Assembly (NCBI RefSeq): GCF_026283965.1
Contig: NZ_JAPDPD010000030.1
Coordinates: forward strand, 1-45,494
Source of the DNA: Dyella subtropica
GTDB lineage: Bacteria; Pseudomonadota; Gammaproteobacteria; Xanthomonadales; Rhodanobacteraceae
Length of the DNA: 45,494 bases
Direction of reading: 5' to 3'
The notes below the pieces were generated by a model. That model saw only the letters and a program-made list of their open reading frames with translations, searched no databases and was not told where the DNA came from. Of this stretch, positions 17,494-44,533 are shown piece by piece. How positions within the stretch are numbered: the first letter of the stretch is position 1; every line of letters starts with the position of its first letter. The position numbers and the translations under genes were made by a program.

Positions 17494-17504
17494 TTGTCAT
17501 ACAA
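17494..17504. promoter_or_regulatory. GntR-type operator before the dgo operon (TTGTCATACAA)
   Basis: The imperfect palindrome TTGT-CAT-ACAA sits in an AT-rich patch (17488-17510), 32 bp before the decayed GntR reading frame and about 200 bp before dgoK. The identical 11-mer occurs at 31280-31290, with one-mismatch versions at 44198-44208 and 44523-44533. This is the TTGT-N3-ACAA half-site geometry of FadR-subfamily GntR proteins. The likely ligand protein is the regulator at 44646; this is inference. Confidence 0.72.
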
Positions 17505-17535
17505 TTAGAATCCCAGCCCTCGAGAGTGTCGCCTC

Positions 17536-17709
17536 GTGTCCAAGGTCCAGCCCGCCCGCCGTATCCATGCGCAGGTCGTCCACGAACGTGGGCGGCTGAT
17601 CGGTGCCGGCCCGTTTGCTCCCGGTGACATCCGGTGCCTTGAAGGGTGGTTCGCCGACTCGGGCAGTCATAGCGGCTCCCGCCAAGCGACGTGGGCCATG
17701 GCGGCATGA
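17536..17709 (+). pseudogene. Decayed GntR/FadR-type regulator (former dgoR)
   Basis: A 57-codon frame from GTG reads RRIHAQVVHERGRLIGAG then PFAPGDI, clearly the first winged-helix helix of a FadR-subfamily GntR protein; compare HGHVVRELGRRIVVGDLRPGDV in the intact regulator at 44646. After PGDI the similarity degenerates (FADSGSHSGS aligns with the region that is normally xAxxxGVSRTA). No ligand-binding FCD domain follows. Its stop overlaps the dgoK ATG as ATGA, so it is the remnant of the first gene of the operon. It still carries the operator upstream. Confidence 0.72.
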
Positions 17710-18644
17710 GTGGGCTGATCGGGCTGGATTGGGGCACGTCGAGCTTGCGCGCGATGCTGATGGACGGGGGCGGCAATGTGCTCGAAGTCCGCAGCCGGCC
17801 TTGGGGCGTCAGGCAGCTCCCGGACGGGGGCTTCGCTGGTGCCTTGCAAACGATCACCGCAAGTTGGCCGGATGTGCCTCGCATCGCCTCGGGGATGGTC
17901 GGCAGCCGCAACGGTTGGCGCGAAGTGCCATATGTCGATCTGCCTGCAGGCCAGGGAGATCTGGCGCAGGCGCTCGATCGAGGTGCCGATGGCAATAGCC
18001 TGGCGATCGTTTCCGGCTTGCGCAATCCGCGCGGCCCGGACGTCATGCGGGGCGAGGAAACCCAGATCATCGGCCTGATCGCCGAGCATCGCGACGCACA
18101 TAACGCCACGGTGGTTCTGCCGGGCACTCACAGCAAGTGGGTGACGGTTCGCGACGGTCTGATCGTTGACTTCCGCACGATGATGACGGGCGAGCTGTAC
18201 GGTTTGTTGCGCCAGCATTCGATTCTGTGCGCTGGCGTGGCGAACGATGCTGGCCCATTCGACTCGCAAGCCTTCATTGATGGCGTTCGCAGTGCACGCG
18301 ACAGCGGCGCGGCCGGTGCGTTCAGCCGTCTGTTCGCCGCGCGCGCACTGATGCTGGATGGCGCGCTGTCCGCGAACGCGGTGCCGGACTATCTGTCGGG
18401 ACTGCTGATCGGCGAGGAGTTTCGCGCGATGCGCGCCGACGCTGGCACGGCCGGCCATGCCCCGCTGTGGCTGATCGGTGATGCGGCGCTTTGCGCCCGC
18501 TATCGCCTGGCCGCTGGCGAATTCGAGGCCAGCCTCGCGCCGCCCGTCGACGATTCTGCGGCGGCCGGCCTGTGGTGTCTGGCGAAGGCAGGCGGGTTGG
18601 TCGCGCGATCAAATTCCATGACTTCTACAAGGGCTAACCCATGA
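17706..18644 (+). CDS. dgoK: 2-dehydro-3-deoxygalactonokinase
   Basis: 312 residues of the DgoK family. It phosphorylates 2-keto-3-deoxy-D-galactonate at C6 with ATP, the third step of the De Ley-Doudoroff galactonate pathway, in the cytoplasm. The ASKHA-type N-terminal phosphate loop LIGLDWGTSSLRA, the family motif ASGMVGSRNGW, then MRGEETQI and LPGTHSKWV are all present. ATG 17706 overlaps the stop of the decayed gntR frame. The in-frame GTG at 17691 is less likely. The stop overlaps the dgoA start (ATGA), so it is translationally coupled. Confidence 0.95.
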   Translation: MSGLIGLDWGTSSLRAMLMDGGGNVLEVRSRPWGVRQLPDGGFAGALQTITASWPDVPRIASGMVGSRNGWREVPYVDLPAGQGDLAQALDRGADGNSLAIVSGLRNPRGPDVMRGEETQIIGLIAEHRDAHNATVVLPGTHSKWVTVRDGLIVDFRTMMTGELYGLLRQHSILCAGVANDAGPFDSQAFIDGVRSARDSGAAGAFSRLFAARALMLDGALSANAVPDYLSGLLIGEEFRAMRADAGTAGHAPLWLIGDAALCARYRLAAGEFEASLAPPVDDSAAAGLWCLAKAGGLVARSNSMTSTRANP

Positions 18645-19279
18645 TCGCGTCTTGGTTGGAACCGCTGCCGCTGGTGGCGATTCTTCGGGGGCTGACGCCC
18701 GATGAAGCGGTGCGGGTGGGCGAGGCGATCATCGATGCCGGTTTTCGCGTGCTCGAAGTGCCGATGAATTCACCGCAGGCGCTGAAGAGCATCACGCACC
18801 TGGCCAAGAGGTTTGGCGACCGTTGCCTGATCGGCGCAGGCACGGTGCTGTCGCCGTCGGTGGTCCGTGAAGTCGCTGACGCAGGTGGCCGATTGATTGT
18901 GATGCCGCATGCGGACACCGCGGTGATCGCTGAGGCCAAGCGCGCTGGCCTGCTATGTGTGCCGGGTGTGGCGACGCCGACGGAGGCTTTCGCGGCACTA
19001 CATGCCGGCGCGGATGCGCTGAAGGTATTTCCGGCGGAAGCGATTCCGCCTGCCGTCGTCAAAGCGTGGCGGGCGGTGCTGCCGCCAGACCTCGCGCTGT
19101 TGCCGGTTGGCGGGATCACCCCGGACAACATGGGCGCTTATGTGGCTGCTGGCGCACGCGGTTTCGGCATCGGCTCCGCTCTCTACGCACCTCGCCGCAG
19201 TGCGGCTGAAACGGCTATGCGCGCTCGCGCCTTTGCAGCCAGTTGGCAAGAACTCGCACGTTCGAGAGCCTGTTTATGA
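18641..19279 (+). CDS. dgoA: 2-dehydro-3-deoxy-6-phosphogalactonate aldolase
   Basis: 212 residues of the KDPG/KDPGal class I aldolase family. It cleaves KDPGal to pyruvate and glyceraldehyde 3-phosphate. Visible catalytic residues are the Schiff-base Lys128 in ADALKVFPAE and the general base Glu39 in RVLEVPMNS, with the phosphate-binding PVGGITPDN near 158. It is coupled to dgoK by ATGA. The last four residues (RACL) and the stop codon are supplied by the left terminal inverted repeat of a 268-bp palindromic element inserted at 19265, so the natural C-terminus has been altered. Confidence 0.95.
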   Translation: MIASWLEPLPLVAILRGLTPDEAVRVGEAIIDAGFRVLEVPMNSPQALKSITHLAKRFGDRCLIGAGTVLSPSVVREVADAGGRLIVMPHADTAVIAEAKRAGLLCVPGVATPTEAFAALHAGADALKVFPAEAIPPAVVKAWRAVLPPDLALLPVGGITPDNMGAYVAAGARGFGIGSALYAPRRSAAETAMRARAFAASWQELARSRACL

Positions 19280-19532: not shown

Positions 19533-19544
19533 AGGGATGACTGT

Positions 19545-20693
19545 ATGAAGATCACCGGTATCAAGACCTTTCTCGTACCGCCGCGATGGTTGTTCGTTCG
19601 CATCGAGACCAATGAGGGCATTGTCGGCTGGGGCGAGCCCGTTGTTGAAGGGCGTGCGCAAACGGTGGCCGCGGCGGTCGATGAACTATCCGACTATCTG
19701 ATCGGCAAAGATCCGCGACATATCGAGGATCTGTGGAACGTGATGTACCGCGGCGGCTTCTATCGCGGCGGCCCGATATTGATGAGCGCGATCGCCGGCA
19801 TCGACCAGGCGCTGTGGGACATCAAAGGCAAGCACCATGGTGTGCCTGCGCATGCGCTGCTCGGCGGCCCGGTGCGTGAGCGCATCCGCGTGTACTCGTG
19901 GATCGGCGGCGATCGCCCGGCGGATACCGCGAAGGCCGCGCGCGACGCAGTAGCGCGCGGGTTCACCGCGGTCAAGATGAATGGTACGGAGGAGATGCAC
20001 TTCGTCGACTCCTACGACAAAGTCGAGCGCGTGATCGAAAACGTGCAGGCGGTGCGTGATGCGGTGGGCCCGCATATCGGTCTGGGCGTCGATTTCCACG
20101 GCCGCGTGCACAAGCCGATGGCCAAGGTGCTGATGCGTGAGCTGGCTCCGTACAAATTGATGTTCATCGAGGAGCCGGTGCTGTCCGAGCACCTGGAAGC
20201 GATTCCCGAATTGGCCGCGATTTCGCCAGCGCCGATCGCGCTCGGTGAGCGCATGTATTCGCGCTACGACTTCAAACGCGTGTTGCAGATGGGCGGTGTC
20301 GACATCATCCAGCCCGACCCTTCGCACTCCGGCGGCATCACCGAAACGCGCAAGATCGCGGCCATGGCGGAAGCCTTTGACGTGGCGCTGGCCTTGCATT
20401 GCCCGTTGGGGCCGATTGCACTGGCGGCGAATCTGCAGCTCGATGCCATCTGCCACAACGCCTTCATCCAGGAGCAGAGCCTGGGCATTCATTACAACGC
20501 CGCCAACGACTTGCTCGACTACGTCGTGGATCGCAGCGTATTCGCCTATGAACAGGGCTACGTGACCATTCCCGGTGGGCCGGGTCTGGGCATCGAGGTC
20601 AACGAGGCCTACGTGATGGAGCGGGCGGCCATCGGCCATCGCTGGCGCAATCCACTCTGGCGCCATGCCGACGGCAGCGTGGCGGAGTGGTGA
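19545..20693 (+). CDS. dgoD: D-galactonate dehydratase
   Basis: 382 residues of the mandelate-racemase subgroup of the enolase superfamily. It dehydrates D-galactonate to 2-keto-3-deoxygalactonate. The catalytic and metal ligands appear at the positions known in E. coli DgoD: Asp183 and His185 (GVDFHGR), Glu209 (FIEEPV), Glu235 (ALGERMYSR) and His285 (ALHCPLGP). Length and ends match the family. The gene follows the 268-bp palindrome by 12 bp, and the same-direction arrangement with dgoKA suggests one transcript unless the hairpin terminates. It ends 4 bp before the SDR start. Confidence 0.96.
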
Positions 20694-20697
20694 GCCG

Positions 20698-21462
20698 ATG
20701 ACGCGCTTCGCCAGCTATCCAAGCCTCGTGGGCCGCAGTGTGCTCATTACCGGCGGCGCCAGCGGCATCGGCGCCTCGTTTGTGGAACAGTTTGCGCGAC
20801 AGGGTGCCCGAGTTGCCTTTGTGGATCGGGACGACGCGGCGGCCCATGCCTTGGTCGCGCAGCTGGCCGACGCCGCGCAGCCGCCGGTTTACCGCCACTG
20901 CGACATCACCGACCTCAACGCGCTGCAGGCCGCGATCGCCGCTCTGCGCGAAGCGGTAGGGCCGTTCTCGGTCTTGATCAACAGCGCGGCGAACGACGTG
21001 CGCCACGCGCTCGGCGAGGTCGACGCCGATGTTTTCGAGCGCAATGTGGCGGTAAACCTGCGTCATCAAATTTTCGCCACCAAGGCGGTCATTCCCGATA
21101 TGCAGTCGCTCGGTGGCGGCTCGATCATCTGCATGGGCTCCACCGGTTGGATGCAGAAGAACGCCGGCTACCCGCTGTACGCGATGGCCAAGGCCGGCAT
21201 CCGCGGTTTCGTCAACGGGATGGCGCGTGAACTGGGTGCCCAGCGTATTCGCATCAACTGCCTGGTGCCCGGCTGGGTGATCACCGAGAAGCAGCGCACG
21301 TTGTGGCTCGACGCCGAGGGTGAGGCTTCGATCAAACGGATGCAGTGCCTGCCCGGTCATCTCGAAGCCGAGGATCTAGCGCGCGCCGCGTTGTTTCTGG
21401 CCGCCGACGACAGCCGCATGTGTACGGGGCAGGATTTCATCGTCGACGGCGGTTGGGTATGA
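20698..21462 (+). CDS. SDR sugar dehydrogenase, probable D-galactose 1-dehydrogenase
   Basis: 254-residue classical SDR. NAD(P)-binding GGASGIG at 19-25 with an acidic FVDRDD after beta-2 (Asp43), which favours NAD+. Catalytic Ser148, Tyr161 and Lys165 are in MGSTGWMQKNAGYPLYAMAK. The tail (GQDFIVDGGWV) is typical. Its place in the dgo operon beside a lactonase and DgoD points to oxidation of D-galactose (or a close aldose such as L-arabinose or fucose) to the lactone. The start is the ATG 4 bp after the dgoD stop; the frame upstream overlaps dgoD. The stop overlaps the next start as ATGA. Confidence 0.9.
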   Translation: MTRFASYPSLVGRSVLITGGASGIGASFVEQFARQGARVAFVDRDDAAAHALVAQLADAAQPPVYRHCDITDLNALQAAIAALREAVGPFSVLINSAANDVRHALGEVDADVFERNVAVNLRHQIFATKAVIPDMQSLGGGSIICMGSTGWMQKNAGYPLYAMAKAGIRGFVNGMARELGAQRIRINCLVPGWVITEKQRTLWLDAEGEASIKRMQCLPGHLEAEDLARAALFLAADDSRMCTGQDFIVDGGWV

Positions 21463-22355
21463 CGGCGGCCGTCCGCGTGGCTCACGCCGGCCCGCATACG
21501 CTCGGCGAGGGCGTGCTGTGGGATGAGCGCGAGCAGGCGGTGTATTGGACCGATATCGCGGGCTGCATGCTTTGGCGCCTGCGTCCCTCGGATGGCCGCA
21601 TCACTCATTGGCGGATGCCCGAGCGGCTGGCCTCGTTCGCGCTTTGCGAGGCGGATGGATGGCTGCTGCTGGCGTTGGCCTCGCAGCTGGCGTTCTTCCA
21701 CTTGGAACGTCAGGAGCTGATCCCGCTTCATCCTATCGAACCCGGTCTACCCACGCGTGCGAACGATGGCGCCTGCGACCGCCAGGGCCGCTTTGTGTTC
21801 GGCACGCTGCATGAGCCTGCCGATGGCGTAAGGCGGCCGATTGGCGGACTGTATCGGCTGCATGGCGATCTCTCGCTCGAACAGCTTCCACTGCCTGGGC
21901 TGGCCATCAGTAACAGCATCGCCTTCAGCCCGGCAGGCGACCGCATGTACTTCTGCGATTCGCCGACCCGCGAGATTCTCTGCTGCGACTATGGCGACTT
22001 GCTCGGTGCGCCGCGCGTCTTCGTCGATCTCAAGCACATCGAAGGCGAGCCGGATGGTTCGGCAGTCGATGCGGAAGGTGCGCTATGGAATGCGCAATGG
22101 GGCATGCATCGCGTGGTGCGCTATCTCCCCGATGGGCGTGAGGACTGCGTACTTGATCTGCCGGCACGCCAACCGACGCGGCCGGCCTTCGGCGGTCCCG
22201 ATCTGAAAACGCTTTACGTCACCAGCGCACGTGACGGTTTGACCGCTGCGCAACTCGCTGCCGATCCCCATGCCGGGGCGCTGTTCGCTTTCCCTGGCGG
22301 CATGGTCGGGCTGCGCGAACCGCGGTTTGCCGGCACGCCGATCCGCGACGGGTAA
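21459..22355 (+). CDS. SMP-30/gluconolactonase-family sugar lactonase
   Basis: 298-residue six-bladed beta-propeller of the SMP-30/regucalcin family. Metal ligands expected in the family are visible: Glu17 in TLGEGVLWDE, Asn in LPTRANDGACD and LAISNSIAFSP, and Asp in EGEPDGSAVDAEG. In context it should hydrolyse galactono-1,4- or 1,5-lactone to galactonate, between the SDR and DgoD steps. It is cytoplasmic, without a signal peptide. Coupled to the SDR by ATGA overlap. Confidence 0.92.
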   Translation: MTAAVRVAHAGPHTLGEGVLWDEREQAVYWTDIAGCMLWRLRPSDGRITHWRMPERLASFALCEADGWLLLALASQLAFFHLERQELIPLHPIEPGLPTRANDGACDRQGRFVFGTLHEPADGVRRPIGGLYRLHGDLSLEQLPLPGLAISNSIAFSPAGDRMYFCDSPTREILCCDYGDLLGAPRVFVDLKHIEGEPDGSAVDAEGALWNAQWGMHRVVRYLPDGREDCVLDLPARQPTRPAFGGPDLKTLYVTSARDGLTAAQLAADPHAGALFAFPGGMVGLREPRFAGTPIRDG

Positions 22356-22413
22356 TCGACCACGGAAGGCCATGCGTTGCCTACCCGTCACCAGTGACCG
22401 CAGGAATTCATCC

Positions 22414-23823
22414 ATGAATACCGTTGCTCCGACCGTCTCCGCCTCGCCCGCCGTCCCGGTGGCTGCCTCACGCACCACCGCCGTCTTCACCTGTGTTCTT
22501 GCCGCGCTCGCCGGGCTGATGTTCGGTCTGGACATCGGCGTGATCTCCGGTGCCAGCCAGTTCATCCAGAAAGAATTCCAGATTTCCGATCACATGATCG
22601 AGTGGATCGTGAGCAGCATGATGCTCGGCGCGGCCATCGGCGCCCTGGGCGCAAGCTGGATGTCGGCCGCGCTGGGCCGCAAGCGTTCGCTGATTCTGGG
22701 CGCCGTGCTGTTCGTGGCCGGCTCATTGCTCTGCGGTGGTGCCTGGTCGCCCGAGGCGTTGATTGCCGCCCGCCTGATCCTTGGTCTCGCCATCGGCATC
22801 GCGACCTTCACGGCACCGCTGTATCTGGCCGAGGTGGCGCCGGAACATATTCGCGGCGCGATGATTTCGCTTTATCAATTGATGATCACCATCGGCATCC
22901 TGGTGGCGTTCCTGTCCGACACAGCCTTCAGCTACAGCGGCAACTGGCGCTGGATGCTGGGCATCATCGCGATTCCCGGTGCGTTGTTCCTGCTTGGTGT
23001 GTTTTTCCTGCCGGATAGCCCGCGCTGGTTGATGATGCGTGGCCGTGTGCGCGAGGCGCATGGCGTGCTGATGCGCCTGCGCGGCGATGAGAGCGTGGCG
23101 CATCGCGAAATGACCGACATCTCCGAACAGTTGAAGACGCCGCAGCGCGGCTGGCATCTGTTTCTGGAGAACACCAACTTCCGCCGTTCAGTGGGCCTCG
23201 GCGTGCTGCTGCAATTGATGCAGCAGTTCACCGGCATGAACGTGGTGATGTACTACGCGCCGCGCATTTTTGAAGGCATGGGTTACGACACGCAGTCGCA
23301 GCTGTGGTTTACCGCCGCGGTGGGCCTCACCAATGTCCTGGCGACCTTCATTGCCATCGGCCTGGTGGATCGCCTCGGCCGCAAGCCGATTCTTTACATT
23401 GGCTTCGTGGTGATGGCGCTGGGTCTGGGCGTCGTTGGCGCGATGATGCACGGGGGCATCACCACGCATGTCGAACAGATCTTCACCGTCGGCATGCTGC
23501 TGGTTTTCATCGTGGGCTTTGCGATGTCCGCCGGCCCGCTGGTGTGGACGCTGTGCTCGGAAGTGCAGCCGCTGAAGGGGCGCGACTTCGGCATCGGCTG
23601 TTCGACCTTCACCAACTGGATCGCCAACATGATTGTTGGCGCCACCTTCCTCAGCCTGCTGCACGGCATCGGCAACGCCGCCACGTTCGGGCTCTACGCC
23701 GGACTCAACCTGGTCTTCATCGTACTGACGTTCTGGCTGGTGCCGGAAACCAAGGGCGTCACGTTGGAGCAGATCGAGGGCAAGCTGATGGCGGGCAAGC
23801 GGCTGCGCGAGATCGGTCGCTAA
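22414..23823 (+). CDS. Sugar porter family MFS symporter, GalP-like
   Basis: 469 residues, the length of E. coli GalP/XylE. Twelve membrane segments with the sugar-porter signatures GLMFGLDIGVISGA (helix 1), the ALGRKRSL and DRLGRKPIL motifs after helices 2 and 8, PDSPRWLMMRGR after helix 6, QQFTGMNVVMYYAP in helix 7 and the terminal VPETKG. It imports a hexose with protons across the inner membrane. As the last gene of the dgo operon it is the probable D-galactose importer. ATG 22414 is 58 bp after the lactonase; upstream in-frame sequence overlaps it. Confidence 0.93.
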   Translation: MNTVAPTVSASPAVPVAASRTTAVFTCVLAALAGLMFGLDIGVISGASQFIQKEFQISDHMIEWIVSSMMLGAAIGALGASWMSAALGRKRSLILGAVLFVAGSLLCGGAWSPEALIAARLILGLAIGIATFTAPLYLAEVAPEHIRGAMISLYQLMITIGILVAFLSDTAFSYSGNWRWMLGIIAIPGALFLLGVFFLPDSPRWLMMRGRVREAHGVLMRLRGDESVAHREMTDISEQLKTPQRGWHLFLENTNFRRSVGLGVLLQLMQQFTGMNVVMYYAPRIFEGMGYDTQSQLWFTAAVGLTNVLATFIAIGLVDRLGRKPILYIGFVVMALGLGVVGAMMHGGITTHVEQIFTVGMLLVFIVGFAMSAGPLVWTLCSEVQPLKGRDFGIGCSTFTNWIANMIVGATFLSLLHGIGNAATFGLYAGLNLVFIVLTFWLVPETKGVTLEQIEGKLMAGKRLREIGR

Positions 23824-30125: not shown

Positions 30126-30240
30126 CGTGATTAGCGTCGAATCTCAGCCGACGTTATTTTCTCCTCCCCCTGCTTGCGACGCGAAGCTAGTCCCGTGGGA
30201 CAGGGGGAGGTCGGGAGGGGGTGAACACTTGCGACAACCT
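30126..30240. repeat. Half copy of the 192-bp palindromic element
   Basis: The left terminus CGTGATTAGCGTCGAATCTCAG (30126-30147) is followed by the C-rich/G-rich stem, a short extra palindrome around AGTCCCGTGGGAC, and GGGGGTGAACACTTGCGACAACC. It stops at the mutarotase gene end, so the right half is missing. The stop codon of galM (30239-30241, minus) lies at the junction. Confidence 0.75.
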
Positions 30241-31222
30241 ATCCCAAGCTCAGCCGGTACTCCGTCACCTGGCGATAGGGTGTTCCCGGTCTCAGGATGA
30301 CGCTTGGAAAGTTGGGTTGATTGGGGGCGTTGGGAAAGCCCTGCGGCTCCAGGCACAGTCCGGCGCGTGATTTGAAGCGTCGCGTACTCAGGCTTTGCGC
30401 ATCGTAGAACTGCAGCGCGGGCTCCGTCGTCCAGATCTCGAGGCCAAGGCCGTTTGTGGAACTCATCAGACTGGCGGCGTGCGCAAGGGATGCGCGATCT
30501 CGGGTCTGTGGATCGAGTACATAGTTGATGTCGAAGGTTTCCGCGCCTACGACGCGCGGGCTTCGAAAGTCGTAAGGTGTTCCATCGACAGATCGGATAT
30601 CCCCTGTCGGAATGCAGTTCGCGTCGACCGGTGTGTAGGACTCGGCATTGATGGCCAACAGATGCTGGTCAATCGTCGGGCTGCCGTCGAGATTGAAGTA
30701 ACTATGCGTCGCCAGGTTCAGCGGCGTGGGCGCGTCGGTTTCCGCGTGGATCTCGATGCGAAGCGTGGACGGCGGCAGCAGGCGATAGGTGCAGACGACG
30801 GATACGGTTCCGGGGAAACCAAGGTCGCCGTCCGGGGAAACCAAGGCGAGCGTGACCTGGTGTTCGTCATATTCCAGCAATTGCCAGGGCCGTTGGCCGA
30901 AGCCGCCCCCACCGCCGTGCAGGGTGCATCGGCCTCGATCGTTTCTAGGCAGGGTGTAGACCTTGCCGTCCAGTTCGAATGACCCGTCACCGATGCGGTT
31001 GGCGACCCTTCCGGCGATCGCGCCCATGTGCGCGCCGTGGGCGAGATACTCGTCGAAATCTTCACATCCCAGGATCACGTCCTGACGCCGACCCTCTTGC
31101 AAGGGCACGCTCAGGCGGCTGAGCGTCGCGCCCCAGGTGATGACGGTGGCGCTTAGTCCCCCGGGCTTGCCGAGAACGATCTCCCGAACGGCACGCCCTT
31201 CACAGTTTCCGATGATTCGCAC
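30239..31222 (-). CDS. galM: Galactose mutarotase (aldose 1-epimerase)
   Basis: 327 residues of the GalM family. It interconverts alpha and beta anomers of D-galactose (or other aldoses), here supplying the anomer that the galactose dehydrogenase uses. Family motifs present are AGRVANRIGDGSF, CTLHGGGGGFGQRPW (active-site His), ATHSYFNLDG (catalytic His), DINYVLD and the Glu of CLEPQGFPNAPN near the C-terminus. No signal peptide is seen, so it is cytoplasmic. A GntR-type operator (31280-31290) lies about 58 bp upstream. The 3' end abuts a MITE half copy. Confidence 0.94.
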   Translation of the reverse strand: MRIIGNCEGRAVREIVLGKPGGLSATVITWGATLSRLSVPLQEGRRQDVILGCEDFDEYLAHGAHMGAIAGRVANRIGDGSFELDGKVYTLPRNDRGRCTLHGGGGGFGQRPWQLLEYDEHQVTLALVSPDGDLGFPGTVSVVCTYRLLPPSTLRIEIHAETDAPTPLNLATHSYFNLDGSPTIDQHLLAINAESYTPVDANCIPTGDIRSVDGTPYDFRSPRVVGAETFDINYVLDPQTRDRASLAHAASLMSSTNGLGLEIWTTEPALQFYDAQSLSTRRFKSRAGLCLEPQGFPNAPNQPNFPSVILRPGTPYRQVTEYRLSLG

Positions 31223-31279: not shown

Positions 31280-31290
31280 TTGTCATACAA
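31280..31290. promoter_or_regulatory. GntR-type operator between galM and the alpha-galactosidases (TTGTCATACAA)
   Basis: Identical to the 11-mer at 17494-17504, in the AT-rich context ATAATGTTATTGTCATACAA. It lies 58 bp upstream of galM (minus) and about 290 bp upstream of the first alpha-galactosidase gene. The 192-bp palindromic element separates it from the latter. It is probably the site by which the regulator at 44646 controls galM and perhaps the divergent pair. Confidence 0.75.
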
Positions 31291-31577: not shown

Positions 31578-32774
31578 ATGAAACGGTTCGCCTTGGCTTT
31601 GTTGGCGTTCGGCCTGTGCTTCGTGGCCTCGTTTGCAAGCGCGGAAGCAGCACCCCCGCAACCACCTCGACAGGCCAACGGGCTGGCCCTGACGCCACCC
31701 ATGGGCTGGAACTCGTGGAACAAGTTCGGCTGCGACATCAACGAGGGCGTGATCCGTGCGGCGGCTGATGCGATGGTCAGCTCGGGGATGAAAGATGCCG
31801 GCTATCGGTATGTGGTCATCGACGACTGCTGGCACGGCGAGCGCGACGCCAACGGCGACATCCAGGCGGATGCCAAGCGCTTTCCCTCGGGCATCAAGGC
31901 GCTGGCGGACTACATCCACGCCAAGGGCCTGAAGTTCGGCATCTATTCCGACGCAGGAAAGAAGACCTGCGCGGGCCGCCCAGGCAGCCGCGGCTTTGAA
32001 TACCAGGACGCCCGCCAATACGCCGCCTGGGGCGTGGACTATCTGAAATACGACTGGTGTTCGACCTACACCCAGGACGGCAAATCGTCCTACGAGACCA
32101 TGAGCGATGCCTTGCGCGCTTCCGGCCGGGACATCGTGTTCAGTCTCTGCGACTGGGGCCGCAACAAGCCTTGGCTGTGGGGCGAGACCATCGGCAACCT
32201 GTGGCGCACCACGGGCGACATCTACGACGGCTGGGAGAGTCGCGATGGCCACTACAACGGCATGACCAACATCCTGGACATGCAGGTGGGCCTGGAGGGC
32301 TACGCCGGCCCCGGCCATTGGAACGACCCGGACATGCTCGAAGTCGGCAACGGCGACATGACCTTCGAGGAATACAAATCGCACTTCAGCCTGTGGGCCG
32401 TGCTGGCCGCGCCGCTGATCGCCGGCAACGACTTGGCGAACATGAGTGCAGAGACCAAGTCGATCCTCACCAACAAGGACATTATCGCGGTCGACCAGGA
32501 TGCCCTGGGCGTTCAGGGCCGACGCGTTGCGAGGGACGGCGACTATGAAGTTTGGGCCAAGCCTCTGAAAGGTGGCGGTCGCGCGATCGTGCTGTTCAAT
32601 CGCAGCAAAGAAGCTCACCGGATCAGCGTGAGCTGGGAGGCGCTGGGTTACCCGGCAACGCTGGAGCGTAGCGTGCGCGACCTGTGGACTCACAAGAACC
32701 TGCCCAAGGCAAAGGGAAGCTTCGCCGCCGACGTGCCCTCGCACGGCGTGGTGATGATCCGCGTTGATGCCTGA
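31578..32774 (+). CDS. Secreted alpha-galactosidase, GH27 (copy 1)
   Basis: 398 residues with a Sec signal (MKRFALALLAFGLCFVASFASA). GH27 TIM barrel: the start LTPPMGWNSWNKFGCDINE, VIDDCW, KFGIYSDAG, nucleophile Asp159 in YLKYDWC and acid/base Asp214 in WRTTGDIYDGW, then GHWNDPDMLEVGN. The C-terminal beta-sandwich is short. It hydrolyses terminal alpha-1,6-galactose from melibiose, raffinose-type sugars or galactomannan side chains, in the periplasm or outside. It is followed after 71 bp by a close paralogue, with an imperfect hairpin (32785-32814) between them. ATG 31578 has AAAGGAA upstream. Confidence 0.95.
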   Translation: MKRFALALLAFGLCFVASFASAEAAPPQPPRQANGLALTPPMGWNSWNKFGCDINEGVIRAAADAMVSSGMKDAGYRYVVIDDCWHGERDANGDIQADAKRFPSGIKALADYIHAKGLKFGIYSDAGKKTCAGRPGSRGFEYQDARQYAAWGVDYLKYDWCSTYTQDGKSSYETMSDALRASGRDIVFSLCDWGRNKPWLWGETIGNLWRTTGDIYDGWESRDGHYNGMTNILDMQVGLEGYAGPGHWNDPDMLEVGNGDMTFEEYKSHFSLWAVLAAPLIAGNDLANMSAETKSILTNKDIIAVDQDALGVQGRRVARDGDYEVWAKPLKGGGRAIVLFNRSKEAHRISVSWEALGYPATLERSVRDLWTHKNLPKAKGSFAADVPSHGVVMIRVDA

Positions 32775-32845
32775 TCTCTCTTGAAGGCCGTCTTCGCCTA
32801 CCGCGAGGCGGCCTCTTCGTATTTCACTTATTGGAAGGACTTCCC

Positions 32846-34045
32846 GTGAAGCGGATCTTTAGTTTTCTGATCAGCCTTCTGGTCCTCGGCGCCATGCATG
32901 CCGTTCCGGCTCAGGCCGAAACCTCTCCGCCGCAGCCGCCCCGACAATCCAATGGCCTCGCCTTGACGCCGCCGATGGGCTGGAACACCTGGAACAAGTT
33001 CGGCTGCGAGATCAACGAGACGGTGATTCGCCAAGCCGCCGACGCCATGGTCAGTTCCGGCATGAAAGACGCCGGCTACGAGTACATCGTCATCGACGAT
33101 TGCTGGCAGAGCGGGCGTGACGCCAAAGGGCAAATCGTCGCCGATGCCAAACGCTTTCCTTCCGGCATGGCCGCGCTTGGCGAGTACATCCACTCCCGGG
33201 GCCTGAAGTTCGGCATCTACTCCGATGCGGGCAAGCTGACCTGCGGCAAGCACCCGGGCAGTTTGGGGCACGAGTTTCAGGACGCGCGTACTTACGCCTC
33301 CTGGGGTGTCGACTATCTGAAATACGACTGGTGCTCCACCTACACCCAGGACGCCAAATCGACCTACGAGACCATGAGCGACGCCTTGCGCGCATCAGGC
33401 CGGCCCATCGTCTTCAGCATTTGCGAATGGGGTTTGAACAAGCCGTGGCTGTGGGGCAAGACGATCGGCAACCTGTGGCGTACCACCGACGACATCTACG
33501 ACCACTGGCAAGGCAAGCACGGCTACGAGCACGGCGTGATGGATATTCTTGATCTGCAGGTCGGCCTGGAAAGCTATTCCGGCCCCGGTCACTGGAATGA
33601 TCCGGACATGCTGGAAGTCGGCAACGGCAAGATGACGCTGGAGGAATACAAATCGCACTTCAGCCTGTGGGCCGCGTTGGCAGCACCCTTGATGGCCGGC
33701 AACGACCTCGCCGCCATGACGCCGGAGATCAAAGCCATCTTGACCAACAAGGAAGTGATCGCCGTCGATCAAGACCCGCTAGGCATCCAGGCTCGTCGCG
33801 TCGCCAAACATGGCGACTTCGAAGTCTGGGCTCGGCCGCTGCAAGGTGGAGGCCGCGCCGTCGTTCTTTTGAATCGCAGCAGCGCCAGCCACACGGTTAC
33901 CGTGACATGGGACGACTTGCACCTTCCTTCATCATTGAGCCTGAAGGTACGCGACCTGTGGGCTCACAAAGACTTGCCCAACGCCAAGGGCAGCTTCTCG
34001 GCGGAGGTGCCGTCGCATGGTGTAGCGATGGTGCGGCTGGAGTGA
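32846..34045 (+). CDS. Secreted alpha-galactosidase, GH27 (copy 2, tandem paralogue)
   Basis: 399 residues from a GTG preceded by GGAAGGA. Signal peptide VKRIFSFLISLLVLGAMHAVPAQA. The catalytic nucleophile is Asp161 (YLKYDWC) and the acid/base Asp216 (WRTTDDIYDHW). Most of the barrel is identical or similar to copy 1, while the signal peptide and sugar-facing loops differ (for example EWGLNKPWLWGK versus DWGRNKPWLWGE). It arose by tandem duplication and probably differs in substrate preference or length of accepted oligosaccharide. The TTG at 32831 would lengthen it but leaves no room for a ribosome binding site. Confidence 0.95.
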   Translation: MKRIFSFLISLLVLGAMHAVPAQAETSPPQPPRQSNGLALTPPMGWNTWNKFGCEINETVIRQAADAMVSSGMKDAGYEYIVIDDCWQSGRDAKGQIVADAKRFPSGMAALGEYIHSRGLKFGIYSDAGKLTCGKHPGSLGHEFQDARTYASWGVDYLKYDWCSTYTQDAKSTYETMSDALRASGRPIVFSICEWGLNKPWLWGKTIGNLWRTTDDIYDHWQGKHGYEHGVMDILDLQVGLESYSGPGHWNDPDMLEVGNGKMTLEEYKSHFSLWAALAAPLMAGNDLAAMTPEIKAILTNKEVIAVDQDPLGIQARRVAKHGDFEVWARPLQGGGRAVVLLNRSSASHTVTVTWDDLHLPSSLSLKVRDLWAHKDLPNAKGSFSAEVPSHGVAMVRLE

Positions 34046-37866: not shown

Positions 37867-37876
37867 TCGCCGCGCG

Positions 37877-39085: not shown

Positions 39086-39108
39086 GGGGATATGCGCCTG
39101 TCGCTTTA

Positions 39109-39131
39109 AAGATGTATCAAGAATACATCTT
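39109..39131. promoter_or_regulatory. NsrR-type operator before hmp
   Basis: AAGATGTAT-CAAGA-ATACATCTT, a perfect palindrome with 9-bp arms and a 5-bp centre, 23 bp upstream of the hmp start. It matches the known NsrR consensus AAGATGyATTT...AAATrCATCTT in its outer arms and spacing. Occupancy would block hmp transcription; NO relieves it. Confidence 0.88.
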
Positions 39132-39293
39132 ATAAAATGCGTCCTGTCGCACTGCGACGCCCTGCCGCATACGAGCCGGCTTGCGTGTCTAGGCGCTGAG
39201 TGCGGCGCTACCGCCAGCCGTCCAGCGCGAGAAAGATATCGATCTCATCACGATTGAGGGTGGCATCTGAAGTTGATACCGAAAGGGTTAAGG

Positions 39294-39319
39294 ATCACCG
39301 ACCTCGGTGTCTCGGTGAT
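39294..39319 (-). terminator. Terminator-like hairpin downstream of the GH63-like gene
   Basis: An 8-bp stem, ATCACCGA pairing with TCGGTGAT, 38 bp after the end of the GH63-like gene on its strand. The rest of 39137-39357 shows no gene. The terminator assignment is positional. Confidence 0.5.
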
Positions 39320-39357
39320 TTCCCGACGCCGCTCGCAGCAGGTTTACATCGCGGCCA

Positions 39358-41397
39358 TTACTCGGTTTGGAGAGCGGCTTGTGTCTCCCCTGTCCTCTTC
39401 TGCAACAGCAGCAGATAGCTGGCCGCCGACCAGCTGAAGTTGCGCGACTGATAGCCCTGGCCGGTCAACGGGTCGTAGTTTTCATAGAAGGGGGCCTGCT
39501 GCGTCAGGCCCTTGGCGTTGAGCACCAGGCGGCGGGCCATGGTGTCAGCCTGCTGTGCGTAGCCGTAACGCCTCAGCGCCTCCACGCCGAAATAGGCCTG
39601 GTCGAGCCAGACGGGGCCGCGCCAATAGCCCTTGATCGGCGAGAACCGCGGATCGTCCGCGGCAAGCGTCGGGAATGGCATGACCGTGGCGAACTTGTGG
39701 GGGTCCAACATCACTCGAACCACGGCGCGGGCCTGATCGGCGCTTGCCACGCCGGCCCAAAGGGGTGTCCAGCCCTCCGAACCATAAATGCGCACGTGAT
39801 CATCGCGGCCCAGTTTGGCGTCGAAGAAGTAACCCAGCGTCTCGTCGAACATCCGCGCTTGAATAGGAGCCTTCATTGCCGCGGCTTCTTTCAGCCACTG
39901 CTGGTGATCCTGGGTTTTGCCGAGGACGGCTGCGACTTGCGCCAGGTCGAGCTTTTCCTTGTAGAGATAGGTGTTGAGATCGACAGACTCCTGGTCGATG
40001 GACCAGGCAGCTTCGCCATTGGCGAGCATCGCGGCGTCGTCGAAGCGAACAGCGTTGTCCATGCCGCTTTCCCACGCGGCGGCGATCTTGGTTCCGTCCG
40101 TCGAACCAAATTCGGCCAGGCCGTTGTGATCGTGGTCGCGTGCCTTGAACCACCAGCGGTGATAGCGCACCAGCTTGTCGTACATCTCGACCAGGAAGGC
40201 CTTGTCGCCGGAGGCACGGTACAGCTCCAGCGCCGCCCATACGGCGAGCGGCGGTTTGCTGTCCCGCTCGTTGTTGTTCGCCTTATCCAGGTAGATACAG
40301 TCGGGAACCATGCCGTCGGCGGCCTGGTAGTCGAACATGGCGCGCATCTGGTCGCGTGCCAGTGCTGGTGCAAAGTGAGCCAGCGCTGCCGTGTGCTTCC
40401 AGGAATCCCAGGCCCAGAAGCCGTTGAAATCGGGGTTTGAATACGAGGGGATGACACCGTCGTGATGGATGTCGCCACGCGCCGCGCGCCAATTGCCAAG
40501 CAGCGTCATCACGGCCTTCACTGAAACTCGCTGCGCCGTGTCATTGGGCAAACCCGGAAGCTGGCTCGATGCGACGGACTTCACGTAACCAGCCCACCGT
40601 TCCTGATGCTTGGACCACGCGGTAGCGTAGTCGACAGGTGCCGGTGTTTCGGTACGGGCGTCATAGAGCAGCGTTTGTTCGACGAAGACGGTCGCGGTCT
40701 GCTCTGGTTTCAGATGCAGTGGCTGGTCCAGGTCGATGCGATAGTCGACTCCCGACAGGGTGGCTCGGTAGCCGGGTGCGCCGTCGGCGTGAAGTCGTGT
40801 GGTCAGCTTCGAATTCGAGTGAGCGAAGGTTTGCGTCACCGCATCCCCGTCCTTGCCGAGCCCGCTCTCCTGCGCCGGCATCACGCGGCCTTCGACAGAA
40901 AGATTGACATCCTTCGCCTCCGCCGCCGTCAGCTCGATCCGCACGAGCGCGTGCCAGGAGTCGGCAAAGAACAGGGTCTGGCGCACCGTCAGGCCCTGTC
41001 CGGCAAAACGGCGAACCAGGTAACCGGGGGCTGCGTGGTCTTCGGAGGGGATCAGGGCGATAGGCTGGCGATTCGTGGTGTCTTTGAGCGCCAATTGTGC
41101 GAAGCGCGCGCCAACCCATTGGCCGTCGCCCAGGCTGTGTACGAACGGGCCGGAGAAGCCCGTGGATGTGTCGTTGGCACGCGGCAGGCTGTAGCCGTGC
41201 CACGAGCCGGCATCGAAAAAGATATTGAAGCTTCGATCCGTTGGCGTCTGTGGCGTGCCATGCAGGTCGAGCAAGTCGAGGTAACGCGCATCATCGCCGG
41301 CCACACGAGCCGCTGACTCAGCGCAGACGTTCCCGCCAGCACAGGCAAGTGCGAGGGCTGCGGCAGCGGCGATCAGGGGTCTGATGGATGGGCGCAT
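39358..41397 (-). CDS. Secreted GH63-like glycoside hydrolase
   Basis: 679 residues with a Sec signal (PLIAAAAALALACAGGNVCA). N-terminal beta-sandwich (about 30-270), then an (alpha/alpha)6 barrel with the GH63/GH37-type motifs GFWAWDSWKHTAALAH, DYQAADGMVPDCIYLD, GSEGWTPLWAG, KGYWRGPVWLDQAYFG and ENYDPLTGQG. It resembles E. coli YgjK, an alpha-glucosidase-like enzyme. The likely role is trimming glucose or galactose-containing oligosaccharides outside the cytoplasm alongside the alpha-galactosidases. It lies 95 bp downstream of the TonB receptor gene on the same strand, probably in one transcript, though a 14-bp hairpin intervenes. Confidence 0.88.
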   Translation of the reverse strand: MRPSIRPLIAAAAALALACAGGNVCAESAARVAGDDARYLDLLDLHGTPQTPTDRSFNIFFDAGSWHGYSLPRANDTSTGFSGPFVHSLGDGQWVGARFAQLALKDTTNRQPIALIPSEDHAAPGYLVRRFAGQGLTVRQTLFFADSWHALVRIELTAAEAKDVNLSVEGRVMPAQESGLGKDGDAVTQTFAHSNSKLTTRLHADGAPGYRATLSGVDYRIDLDQPLHLKPEQTATVFVEQTLLYDARTETPAPVDYATAWSKHQERWAGYVKSVASSQLPGLPNDTAQRVSVKAVMTLLGNWRAARGDIHHDGVIPSYSNPDFNGFWAWDSWKHTAALAHFAPALARDQMRAMFDYQAADGMVPDCIYLDKANNNERDSKPPLAVWAALELYRASGDKAFLVEMYDKLVRYHRWWFKARDHDHNGLAEFGSTDGTKIAAAWESGMDNAVRFDDAAMLANGEAAWSIDQESVDLNTYLYKEKLDLAQVAAVLGKTQDHQQWLKEAAAMKAPIQARMFDETLGYFFDAKLGRDDHVRIYGSEGWTPLWAGVASADQARAVVRVMLDPHKFATVMPFPTLAADDPRFSPIKGYWRGPVWLDQAYFGVEALRRYGYAQQADTMARRLVLNAKGLTQQAPFYENYDPLTGQGYQSRNFSWSAASYLLLLQKRTGETQAALQTE

Positions 41398-41492: not shown

Positions 41493-44024
41493 TCAGAACT
41501 TGTACTTAGCCTGGAAGTTCACCTCACGCCCTTCGATCGAGCGAGCAAGGATCACGCCGCCACCGCTGGCAAAGCCGAACAAGCGGGCGTTGCCTTCCGT
41601 GATACCGATCTGGTTGGTCATATTGGTGCCGCGAAGCGTCAGCTGCCAGTTCTGGCCGATGTTGGCGATGGCACCGAAGCTCAGGGCGTAATAGCTGCCC
41701 AGCGGCTGCTGTTGAAGCTGGTCGCCGTAGCGATCGCCCATATGCTCATAGGTGACCCAGAACTTCATGCTGCCCCAGCTGGTTGGCATGGTATAGGAGG
41801 GCGTCAGGCGGTACTGGAGTTTCGGCTGACGATCCAGACGCTTGCCGTTGATGCTGCTGCATAGATTGCTGCCGTCCTGTCCGACGTAGGGCACGCAACT
41901 GTCGTAACCCGAGTAGTGGCCGTCCATGTAGTTGCCGCTCAGCGCGACCGAAAAATGCTCGAACGGTGTGACCGTCACCTGCGCGTTGAGGCCCTTGGTC
42001 ACGGAGCCGTAGACGAGGTTGACCTGTCCGCTGCTGAGCATGATCGAGTACGGCACGCCGTGGAACAATCGGCGATAGGCACTGATGTCGGCGAAGATCC
42101 AGGGCGCCTGGTATTTGAAGCCGACTTCCATGTTGTGGATCTTCTCCGTCGGTGGCTTCTGCAGGTTCACCATATCGTCGAAGCTCGGCAGGAAAACGCC
42201 ATCGTTGACGCGCCCATAGACGCTCATGTTCTTGCTCAGTGCGTAGTTCGCGCCCACGGTCCACGATGGCGCGCTGCGCGAACCCGAAATGTGCTGGTAG
42301 CTGTTGGTCAGGTATTCGGCGTTGTTGTTGTAGACGGTGTACGGGTTGTTATCGAGATCGCCGGAGGTGGTGTTCTGGAACGAACCACCGATGTCGTCAT
42401 GCTGGATGCGCATGCCGCCGTCGAGCCGCCACTTGCCGATGTTCCACTCGTCGGCAAGGAAGAACGCCGTGGTGGTGGCGTGCCAGCGTTCGTTGAATGC
42501 CATCCACGACTGCGGCTGGGAATTCCAGAACGTGCCGCGCGAGTCGGTCAGGGCGTAGGTGTTGGTGCCATCGCTCAGGTTGACCACGATCGGATTCGGG
42601 TTGTTCTTCGCCTGCAGCAACTGATTGGAGCCGTTGGCTTCCGAATGATGTTCGGAGAACACGGCCGTGTAGTTGCCGAAGGTCAGCGTGTTGCCCTCGA
42701 ACAGTTCCTTGCTCAGATGAAATTCGTTGCTGACCGACTGGATGCGCTTGTGGATGTACTCGGGGTTCTGAACGGTGACGTTCTCGTTCATGTTCGCCGG
42801 CTTGCCGTTGGTGTACGTAGCCGTCGCGGTCAGGTTGGAAGGAAGGCCGAACGACGCGCTGGTGTCCGAGATGAAGCCGGAGAGCGAGGTCGGATTCGCA
42901 CCGGTGCTGAAGAACGCACTGGTATCCATGTTGCCGGCGACAAAAATGAATTTGTCCGAAAGCGCCCAGCCGTTGTCGAACGCCAGATCCAGATTGCCGC
43001 CCAGCATGTGCACATCGCCGCCCTGGCCATTGGCCATGTCGACGTTTATACCGCCCGGCGAGCAGCCCGCGGTGAAGCACGGCGTGGTCTCGAAGAACTG
43101 GTGCCGGTCGGCATTGCTGCCGAAGGTGCCGGTCAACGGGCTAAAGCCGGGGTAGGCCGAGAACTTGCCGGGAGCAGGGTTGAGGATGGGCGTGTCGGTG
43201 ACGAACTGGTTCTTGTCCTTCAGGTCGCGCGCGTAGAACATGATCGAGCCGTGCTGGAGATCATGGCTCAACGTAGCGGTGAGCTGGCCGCCCTTGTCGG
43301 CGGCAAACTGCGGGTCGCGCACACCGTCGGACCTGCGCCAGAAGCCGCCGATGCTGCCGTACCAGCCACTGTCCTTGCCGATGGGGAAGCCGTAGAAGCC
43401 ATCGAGGCGCACCATGCCTTCCGAGCCATAAGTGAGGCCGACGTCGCCCGAGGGTGTGCCGGTGCCCTCGCGGAGAATGAAGTTCGCAATGAGTCCCGGC
43501 TGGCCGTTGCCATACAGCACCGAGGGGCCGCCCTGCAGGGCTTCGACGCGATCGATGGTGTCATCGAGGCGGAACATGGCGTCGGTGAAGTAATCCCACT
43601 TCGGGAACAGCGGCGAGCCGTTCATCTGCAAGGTGACGAACGGTGCACCGCTGTCCGACGGAAAGCCGGCGACCTCGATGTTTGCGCCGGTCTGGCCGCC
43701 GGACGATTCCGGATAGACGCCAGGCGATACCTTGAGAAGATCCGACACGCTGATGGGGTTGAGCTCTTTGATCTGGTCGCGCGTCGCGGTGGTAATCGAG
43801 TAACTCGCGTCGATTCGCTTGATGCCGCCGGAGGTCGAATTGCCGGAGACCACGACCTGGTCGAGCGTCTGAGCGGATTTCGTCTCCGCTGCCTTGGGTT
43901 TGCTCTGGTCAGCGGACGGTGTGGCTTGGGTCGATGCATCCTGGGCATGGACGGCACCGGCCGCCAACATGGCGCCGATCGCCAGCGCCAGGACCTGGCG
44001 GTTGAACTGCTTGCAAGTGCTCAT
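41493..44024 (-). CDS. TonB-dependent outer-membrane receptor
   Basis: 843 residues from the ATG preceded by GGAGGGG. Signal peptide (QVLALAIGAMLAAGAVHAQ), then a TonB-box-like TLDQVVVSG, a plug with KELNPISVSDLLKVSPGVYP, IEVAGFPSD, DRVEALQGGPSVLYGNGQPG and ANFIL, and a 22-strand-type barrel ending in the aromatic EVNFQAKYKF. Family members import large ligands through TonB energy. The operator upstream, and the neighbours GH63-like hydrolase and GntR regulator, suggest alpha-galactoside or related oligosaccharide uptake rather than siderophore uptake. An in-frame GTG at 44093 is not favoured. Confidence 0.93.
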   Translation of the reverse strand: MSTCKQFNRQVLALAIGAMLAAGAVHAQDASTQATPSADQSKPKAAETKSAQTLDQVVVSGNSTSGGIKRIDASYSITTATRDQIKELNPISVSDLLKVSPGVYPESSGGQTGANIEVAGFPSDSGAPFVTLQMNGSPLFPKWDYFTDAMFRLDDTIDRVEALQGGPSVLYGNGQPGLIANFILREGTGTPSGDVGLTYGSEGMVRLDGFYGFPIGKDSGWYGSIGGFWRRSDGVRDPQFAADKGGQLTATLSHDLQHGSIMFYARDLKDKNQFVTDTPILNPAPGKFSAYPGFSPLTGTFGSNADRHQFFETTPCFTAGCSPGGINVDMANGQGGDVHMLGGNLDLAFDNGWALSDKFIFVAGNMDTSAFFSTGANPTSLSGFISDTSASFGLPSNLTATATYTNGKPANMNENVTVQNPEYIHKRIQSVSNEFHLSKELFEGNTLTFGNYTAVFSEHHSEANGSNQLLQAKNNPNPIVVNLSDGTNTYALTDSRGTFWNSQPQSWMAFNERWHATTTAFFLADEWNIGKWRLDGGMRIQHDDIGGSFQNTTSGDLDNNPYTVYNNNAEYLTNSYQHISGSRSAPSWTVGANYALSKNMSVYGRVNDGVFLPSFDDMVNLQKPPTEKIHNMEVGFKYQAPWIFADISAYRRLFHGVPYSIMLSSGQVNLVYGSVTKGLNAQVTVTPFEHFSVALSGNYMDGHYSGYDSCVPYVGQDGSNLCSSINGKRLDRQPKLQYRLTPSYTMPTSWGSMKFWVTYEHMGDRYGDQLQQQPLGSYYALSFGAIANIGQNWQLTLRGTNMTNQIGITEGNARLFGFASGGGVILARSIEGREVNFQAKYKF

Positions 44025-44197
44025 TTTGAAATCCCCTCCCCGAGATAGTGGGTGATGTTTTTTTATGTGGGCCCGATGTCGCGGCGCCTGCACGTTGGCG
44101 AATCCCGTCTGATGTCTGACGTTGCTTCGCCACGTGCCCCACCGTCCAGATCACAGCTACGCATCGGCGGGACTTCATCCTAGCCTAAAAAATCTAT

Positions 44198-44208
44198 TTG
44201 TCCTACAA
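44198..44208. promoter_or_regulatory. GntR-type operator before the TonB receptor (TTGTCCTACAA)
   Basis: One mismatch from TTGTCATACAA, in an AT-rich patch (44186-44215), 174 bp upstream of the receptor start on its strand. The stretch up to 44645 holds no other gene. Confidence 0.68.
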
Positions 44209-44522
44209 TAGGAACATAAGAATACAAGGCATAAGGCCGAGCACCCGGTCAGGAGGCGCTTGAAGCTCCCCGCAAAACGGCGAGCGCCACCGACGGCGCG
44301 AGGACGAGCCTCTGCAATGCCATCGCTAGCGCGGTATGCATGGCTGGACGTTCGGTGGTTGCCTCAAGACGGCATGTGAACGTGATCCGCGGATCAAAGG
44401 CGTTGGTGCAAAGCCAGCGACTCGCTGCACTTGTTTTTCATCGGCTGCCTGCGCTCAGGGCGAGCGTCGCGAGCGGGTGCTTCACGGATGTGAGGGCGTC
44501 GCGCAAACTTCACATCGTACGT

Positions 44523-44533
44523 TTGTATGATAA
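44523..44533. promoter_or_regulatory. GntR-type operator before the regulator gene (TTGTATGATAA)
   Basis: The reverse complement of the shared palindrome with one mismatch (TTATCATACAA), in an AT-rich patch (44519-44540), 113 bp upstream of the regulator start. It suggests autoregulation. Confidence 0.62.

Follow-up and report, generated by a model that had tools for sequence, protein, structure and literature searches.

Four palindromes, one of them before a decayed local dgoR, point to a DgoR-type galactoside regulon in Dyella subtropica

Introduction

Which regulator controls a dgo operon that has lost its own repressor gene? The question is raised by contig NZ_JAPDPD010000030.1 of Dyella subtropica (assembly GCF_026283965.1), the whole of which, 45,494 nucleotides, was analysed and is called the window below. 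It carries a dgo operon, further genes for galactoside use and, 27 kb from dgoK, an intact gene for a DgoR-type regulator of the GntR/FCD kind. An initial annotation had noticed one palindrome, TTGTCATACAA, in four promoter regions and had predicted a single regulon from it. On the sequence evidence assembled here it is very probable that the four sites are operators of this repressor (44646-45386), which would hold down the galactoside genes until an inducer releases it and would have taken over the dgo operon as well. The single-regulon prediction is supported by conservation of the sites in relatives, by a matrix built from other genomes and by the co-occurrence of the motif with dgoR.

Results

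Four copies of one palindrome in promoter regions

When the 45,494 bases were scanned for TTGTCATACAA, two exact copies and two copies with one mismatch were found. They are listed with their scores under a matrix made of 46 distinct sites that precede dgoR in other genomes.

17494..17504, plus strand: candidate operator O1, TTGTCATACAA (exact), before the dgo operon; TAAAAG (4/6 to TATAAT) lies 4 nucleotides before it; score 23.9
31280..31290, plus strand: candidate operator O2, TTGTCATACAA (exact), between galM and the first GH27 gene (GH27a); TATAAT lies 4 nucleotides before it, towards GH27a; score 23.0
44198..44208, plus strand: candidate operator O3, TTGTCCTACAA (one mismatch), before the TonB-dependent receptor gene (tonB); score 22.9
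44523..44533, minus strand: candidate operator O4, TTATCATACAA (one mismatch), before dgoR; overlaps a promoter-like pair; score 26.9

Beyond these four, no match with up to one mismatch was present anywhere in the window, and the positions, the exact or one-mismatch status and the absence of other copies given in the initial annotation were borne out at that stringency. With up to two mismatches, 13 matches were counted where 4.2 are expected and 100 shuffled sequences gave 9 at most. All four copies sit upstream of genes, namely the dgoK-dgoA-dgoD series with its dehydrogenase, lactonase and porter genes, the galM/GH27 pair, tonB, and the GntR/FCD gene itself; the copies at 44198 and 44523 share the single intergenic region of the divergent tonB and dgoR. 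The runner-up place in the window scored 11.6, and the best other candidate in this genome, where the matrix was applied to the loci around pattern matches, scored 18.6.

The window is the entire contig C23, less than 1% of an assembly of 4.95 Mb in 46 contigs. Four of the 18 matches to TTGTCATACAA with up to one mismatch in the genome fall within it (Poisson 1e-5 from the rate of the other 14, this and the following Poisson figures being optimistic as the motif was picked from the same window). The genome holds 28 copies of the symmetric form TTGTNNNACAA (reversed control 76), four of which fall in the window, at three of the noted sites and at 15454 in a coding open reading frame (ORF) (Poisson 9e-5, or 0.002 counting three), while TWRTCMTACAA is found six times, four of them in the window (reversed control 11). 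As the palindrome at 15454 falls within ORF 14746-15510, it was not counted among the candidate operators; its fully palindromic TTGTTTTACAA core (15454-15464), in the 3' end of what is a glycosyltransferase ORF, is probably a chance occurrence. There are three exact copies of TTGTCATACAA genome-wide. The third, on another contig (C28:15435), overlaps the start codon of an ORF that we take, by eye and without a family search, to encode an alpha-2-macroglobulin-type protein; as this neighbour is apparently unrelated, the copy was set aside as chance.

A -10-like hexamer (at least 4/6 to TATAAT) was found exactly 4 nucleotides before the operator in 62% of 42 dgoR-proximal sites, the window included, and in at most 7% of them at any other gap from 0 to 15. 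An operator placed directly after the -10 hexamer fits repression at the transcription start. The promoter-like pair that O4 overlaps is TTCACA-16-TAAATT (44509-44536), the one such match in 800 bp, with 0.4 expected by shuffling.

Conservation of the candidate operator before dgoR

The named genomes were scanned with a 10-member DgoR alignment, which gave 553 relatives, and the best 80 were kept and reduced to 76 loci. These are mostly Rhodanobacteraceae by title, several genomes are in twice, and the counts below are uncorrected for relatedness. In 45 of the 76, dgoR is immediately followed by dgoK or dgoA, and a divergent galM is frequent there; in other loci it lies within 5-9 kb of dgoK, compared with 27 kb in the window. 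Seventeen loci (L060-L076) have the window-like layout with dgoR divergent from tonB. TTATCATACAA precedes dgoR in 15 of these 17 and TTGT[CA]CTACAA precedes tonB in four, with weaker tonB-side variants in L064, L069, L071, L073, L075 and L076.

The motif was also recovered de novo from the 400 bp before dgoR in 75 relatives plus the window. TTGT-N3-ACAA was the commonest palindrome among 256 half-sites with a 3-nucleotide spacer (28 of 76 sequences, 0.7 expected), and TCATACAA was the commonest 8-mer (49 of 76). A core site lies within 420 bp of dgoR in 49 of the 76 loci, which define the matrix, and 21 of the remaining 27 hold a variant such as TTGTAATACAT or TTATCCGACAA scoring at least 12.9, a threshold chosen after looking and to be read against a background of 45 matches of at least 12 in the 1.40 Mb of the rest of the loci. 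Many dgoR-dgo loci have TTGTATGACAA 44-107 bp before dgoR and TAATCATACAA closer to galM.

The matrix was then run over 86 loci of relatives, after masking of the training stretch in the 76. Matches elsewhere in the loci were often at promoters of GH42-like, TonB, GH27, galM or dgoR genes. Forty-eight scored at least 15, some of the loci being two copies of one stretch. Thirteen of the 48 lie 12-44 bp before an ORF of ~710 residues as called. Pfam was run on this ORF in L060 and L061 alone, and in both it is a GH42 beta-galactosidase. Most others adjoin, by eye, dgoR, galM, GH27 or TonB-sized ORFs, and at least four (L090:12954, L100:2030, L119:8289 and L133:4032) have no recognised galactoside or dgoR neighbour. 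Since all loci were chosen near dgoR, their gene content is no independent test; the promoter position of the sites is. Sites of 13.9-14.8 were also seen near the ~710-residue ORF in L060, L061, L063 and L075. In nine loci (L138-L146), no site with up to two mismatches was present in the 800 bp before dgoK. Two of them, L145 and L146, have a local dgoR before dgoK, so the site could lie farther up; for the other seven, the ~710-residue ORF precedes dgoK in the matching loci looked at (L063 was not checked).

At the place that corresponds to O2, D. tabacisoli (L060) has TTATCATACAA before GH27a, again in the arrangement TATAAT-N4, and TTGTC and TTATC forms therefore interchange at one orthologous place.

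Three other features of these loci were recorded. In many Dyella and Frateuria loci among L077-L111, the TAATCATACAA before galM is flanked by TTGCAYGA and then TTGCATG, perhaps the site of a second, overlapping regulator. L057 (1-19900) holds a cluster with GH27+CBM35, GH95 and major facilitator superfamily (MFS) genes and two DgoR-like genes, one of them 35% identical, together with seven variant operators (score at least 15 or up to two mismatches) outside obvious coding matches. A Rhodanobacteraceae-like dgoR-dgo locus (DgoD 87% identical) was also seen on L098, a contig whose title reads Candidatus Eremiobacteraeota; transfer or misbinning may account for it.

The exact 11-mer across the family

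Counted over 59 family genomes taken from a larger group, the exact 11-mer has 34 occurrences and the reversed control 12. A dgoR of this type (E up to 1e-60) is present in 31 of the 59, and these 31 hold 29 of the 34 sites, three of them the window genome's own, as against 5 of the 12 controls (Fisher 0.006). A tally made by eye puts 14 of the 34 in the 200 bp that precede a dgoR, where ~0.002 would be expected by area assuming 4.5-Mb genomes. Four more are O1, O2, one site in the L057 galactoside cluster and one before a GH27-like gene (L163).

The regulator encoded at 44646

44646..45386, plus strand: dgoR, predicted GntR/FCD repressor; TTG start after GGAGAG by eye, ATG at 44613 possible

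The GntR gene of the initial annotation can now be described as a DgoR-type repressor gene. Its product, searched as the longer ORF from 44340, has an N-terminal GntR winged helix-turn-helix (HTH) domain (PF00392, 3.3e-18) and a C-terminal FCD domain (PF07729, 1.6e-25), and its best solved relative is E. coli DgoR (7c7e, E 6e-31; the next, 4e-16). Of the 23 families listed by NCBIfam, headed by NanR and LldR, none carries the name DgoR and none comes near its cut-off. The gene is the single DgoR-grade gene in the assembly; the only other genome match to the protein is weak (E 7.6e-4) and confined to the HTH region, no search having been made for other GntR families. It belongs to a clade of 18 tonB-divergent dgoR genes (support 100/99), and the most similar distant DgoR found is that of D. 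tabacisoli (90%). The window sites have the operator frame TTGT-N3-ACAA, O4 being off by one base. In a pairwise alignment to E. coli DgoR, the pocket residues D146, H150, H195, R102 and S221 are kept, T191 is S, and Q173, R179, W181, D184 and R224 are changed.

Just past dgoR, at 45408-45494, lies a perfect 34-nucleotide inverted repeat in which the contig ends; the assembly may have stopped here at a repeated element.

A relic of a local dgoR between O1 and dgoK

17536..17709, plus strand: dgoR relic; first ~30 codons recognisable, then a short tail; its TGA overlaps the dgoK ATG

The gap between O1 and dgoK has room for fewer than 70 codons, and the bulk of a dgoR gene is missing from it. 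In the frame that opens with GTG at 17536, 17 of 30 residues are identical to the N-terminal 30 of the local DgoR of D. tabacisoli (score 78; shuffle maximum 44, 0/2000 as high). D. tabacisoli has an intact local dgoR at the corresponding place; the stretch ATCATGCTAAAAG....TTTGTACTACAA at O1 recurs before that gene, and the overlap of the TGA with the dgoK ATG matches that of the intact gene. An intact dgoR, with TTGTATGACAA before it, also occupies this place in a genome of the same genus (G004; L052) that has a DgoD 94% identical to the window protein. The local DgoR of D. tabacisoli stands apart from the tonB-divergent clade on a long branch, its placement being unsure. A C-terminal remainder of the relic, suggested by eye in the DNA, was not significant as protein (372/2000 shuffles as high) and was discarded. 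The relic might persist as a short leader translationally coupled to dgoK.

Since the relic and a sole remaining DgoR-grade gene are found together, O1 has survived the loss of its own repressor gene; the candidate for using it now is the distant paralogue, and the DgoR encoded at 44646 presumably controls dgo in trans.

Genes adjoining the sites

The genes that the sites adjoin encode the following products (SDR, short-chain dehydrogenase/reductase).

17706..18644, plus strand: dgoK, 2-keto-3-deoxygalactonokinase; PF05035, E 1.2e-88 (scanned from ORF start 17691), no NCBIfam match
18641..19279, plus strand: dgoA, 2-keto-3-deoxy-6-phosphogalactonate (KDPGal) aldolase; NF006600, 292.9 bits, cut-off 207
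19545..20693, plus strand: dgoD, galactonate dehydratase; NF010624, 688.6 bits, cut-off 311
20665..21462, plus strand: SDR, candidate galactose 1-dehydrogenase; nearest model D-xylose 1-dehydrogenase, 303 bits against a cut-off of 400
21345..22355, plus strand: SMP-30/gluconolactonase-like lactonase; PF08450, E 2.7e-72, no NCBIfam match; ORF start given, true start probably later
22270..23823, plus strand: MFS sugar porter; TIGR00879, 445 bits, cut-off 237.8; ORF start given, true start probably later
30239..31222, minus strand: galM, aldose 1-epimerase; PF01263, E 3e-82
31578..32774, plus strand: GH27 alpha-galactosidase a; PF16499, signal-peptide-like N terminus by eye
32831..34045, plus strand: GH27 alpha-galactosidase b; PF16499, signal-peptide-like N terminus by eye
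39358..41397, minus strand: GH63/YgjK-like glycosidase; PF22422, PF21152, PF03200; NF007525, 415 bits against a cut-off of 625; signal-peptide-like start by eye
41493..44093, minus strand: TonB-dependent receptor; PF00593, PF07715; true start probably near 44025, by eye

The enzyme assignments of the initial annotation stood, with DgoD and DgoA passing their NCBIfam cut-offs and the SDR and the GH63-like enzyme falling below those of their nearest models; two GH27 genes are present. Five De Ley-Doudoroff functions are encoded together, galactose dehydrogenase, lactonase, DgoD, DgoK and DgoA, the dehydrogenase and lactonase being assigned by family and position only. No match to galactokinase (TIGR00131) was found in the assembly (galT and galE were not searched), and as a control the same model matched in 12 of 14 genomes, above cut-off in 8. 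Without a Leloir galactokinase, the oxidative route would be needed. The GH63/YgjK-like gene lies behind tonB, and both read away from O3; their predicted co-regulation makes the two products candidates for a galactoside role. YgjK favours galactose-containing substrates. A YgjK structure with glucose and lactose is mentioned in PMC7263609.

Between O2 and GH27a, in the alpha-galactosidase leader, an inverted repeat with two 52-nucleotide arms, 75% complementary, was noted at 31363-31478. The ~5 kb between GH27b and the GH63-like gene (34045-39358) hold a LysR gene and a globin/NAD-binding (flavohaemoglobin-like) gene; in D. tabacisoli the two glycosidase genes are almost adjacent, and the window LysR has counterparts in L073 and L090 at 93-94% identity. 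A plus-strand ORF of 2310 residues occupies 7725-14657.

Discussion

A proposed DgoR regulon

In the absence of inducer, a DgoR dimer would occupy TTGT-N3-ACAA beside or over the -10 region and the transcription start, repressing dgoK-dgoA-dgoD together with the SDR, lactonase and sugar porter genes at O1, galM and both GH27 alpha-galactosidases at O2, the TonB receptor and probably also the GH63-like enzyme behind it at O3, and dgoR itself at O4. A galactose-derived acid, D-galactonate or a later intermediate, would release the repressor, and surface import, cleavage, uptake and the De Ley-Doudoroff route would be switched on together. The ancestral dgo operon would have had its own dgoR between operator and dgoK; that copy decayed here, and the paralogue 27 kb away presumably took over its operator.

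Several observations weigh against this proposal. The bare 11-mer with up to one mismatch is no more frequent genome-wide than the reversed pattern (18 and 17), i.e. it occurs at chance level, and 16 of the 34 exact family sites have no recognised dgoR or galactose neighbour (one, G065:C8, was not examined); these 16 are probably mostly background. Conservation is uneven: O3 is exact in just 4 of the 17 tonB-divergent relatives, one orthologous site was found for O2, in D. tabacisoli, and 6 of the 76 loci (L113, L114, L115, L130, L134 and L135) have no site of at least 12.9 before dgoR, although a strong one occurs in another part of the locus in L114, L115 and L130. The site at this genome's GH42 gene, on the small contig C34, is weak (13.3). 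In relatives, the galM beside dgoR shares just 36-41% identity with the window gene, so control of galM is common to them in kind and not demonstrably at an orthologue. Among the 31 sites that lie over 160 bp away from dgoR, examined in the direction of the divergent gene, just 13% have a -10 hexamer at gap 4, and O4 has none at that gap. Finally, W181 and R224 of E. coli DgoR, whose change to alanine cuts galactonate binding (PMC7674646), align with A186 and N228, and Q173, R179 and D184 also differ; the effector may therefore not be galactonate.

Could an AT-rich 11-mer simply recur in the AT-rich promoter regions of a GC-rich genome? The initial annotation had named many unrelated genome-wide matches as the outcome that would speak against one regulon, and such matches are indeed what the naive one-mismatch scan returned; because its count is at chance level, that scan alone is insufficient. 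The apparently unrelated third exact copy and the neighbourless family sites point the same way. However, 4 of the 18 matches crowd into the window, sites are kept at matching places in relatives and, once flanks are included, the four outrank every other scored candidate under a matrix from other genomes. Shuffles, the reversed control, that foreign matrix and the presence or absence of dgoR together set chance aside, and it is hardly credible as an explanation. It is also very improbable that the sites belong to another regulator of the same genes, either the LysR protein encoded at 35034 or another GntR. Several kinds of FadR-subfamily GntR protein do share TKGT/ACMA boxes (PMC4494728), and the TAATCATACAA sites near galM differ in their flanks from dgoR-proximal sites, but the motif or a variant precedes dgoR in 70 of the 76 loci, a LysR match occurs in just 3 of them as fetched (L073, L088 and L090), and the only further match to DgoR in the genome, where other GntR families were left unsearched, is the weak one to the HTH region.

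Two further alternatives accept DgoR and change its role. Control by the distant DgoR might be confined to tonB, its own gene and the GH27 cluster, with dgo no longer under DgoR and O1 surviving as a fossil beside the relic. Decay of the local dgoR and the separate, well-supported clade of the surviving one would suit this account, yet O1 still scores 23.9 despite the decay of the gene after it and is the identical 11-mer to O2 beside the GH27 genes, and we regard it as unlikely. That DgoR is an activator, or both activator and repressor, seems quite improbable: O4, ~110 bp from the dgoR start and, like its group, lacking a -10 at the 4-nucleotide gap, would allow it, whereas at most other dgoR-proximal sites and at O2 the operator follows the -10 directly, and the E. 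coli protein acts as a repressor (PMC12288454). Repression by DgoR at all four sites stays the preferred reading.

With moderate confidence we favour a wider account, in which the DgoR of Rhodanobacteraceae grew from a local galactonate repressor into a master switch of the whole galactoside route (outer-membrane receptor, alpha- and beta-galactosidases, mutarotase, uptake and De Ley-Doudoroff enzymes) through duplicated dgoR genes sharing one operator code; here, one duplicate would have decayed in place and its surviving operator been captured in trans by the paralogue. If this is true, a regulator takeover has been caught in the act, and a local sugar-acid repressor has become a pathway-wide regulator through gene duplication and a conserved operator. 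A TonB receptor and glycosidases for which only the family is known would also acquire a regulator, an operator and a physiological role. The relic offers a natural test of paralogue takeover, the local repressor being gone here and intact in D. tabacisoli.

Comparison with known systems

DgoR, its motif and a predicted Halomonas DgoR regulon that reaches a galactose transporter are already in print (PMC5507952, PMC4494728). A regulon reaching an outer-membrane receptor, alpha-galactosidases and galM in Rhodanobacteraceae, and a relic with a surviving operator, were not found in the literature searched, to which RegPrecise and subscription papers did not belong.

The FadR-subfamily GntR motif TKGT/ACMA has the same 3 nucleotides between GT and AC, and DgoR is among the proteins listed for it; it is, however, a general motif, and the word Xanthomonad is absent from the main text of that paper (PMC4494728). 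The predicted Halomonas regulon likewise joins dgo genes to a COG3386 lactonase (DgoL), a predicted galactose transporter and a D-xylose-dehydrogenase-like candidate galactose dehydrogenase, but no TonB receptor, alpha-galactosidase, galM or GH63-like gene is named in its description there (PMC5507952).

The dgoRKADT operon of E. coli also has a GntR/FCD repressor and an operator in the TTGT-N3-ACAA frame; its dgoR stands immediately ahead of dgoK, an order found in many relatives of the window. Its IR1 operator is given as TTGTAGTACAA (PMC12288454), which was seen in the E. coli K-12 sequence, and the same 11-mer occurs in L120, L129 and L133 (Rhodanobacter, Pinirhizobacter). The metal ligands D146, H150 and H195, together with R102 and S221, are identical in the aligned proteins, whereas only 76 of 219 aligned positions are identical overall and the pocket differs at W181, R224, Q173, R179 and D184. 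In place of dgoT, the window operon has the SDR, lactonase and sugar porter genes, and the predicted targets of its DgoR extend beyond those of E. coli DgoR to galM, GH27 and TonB.

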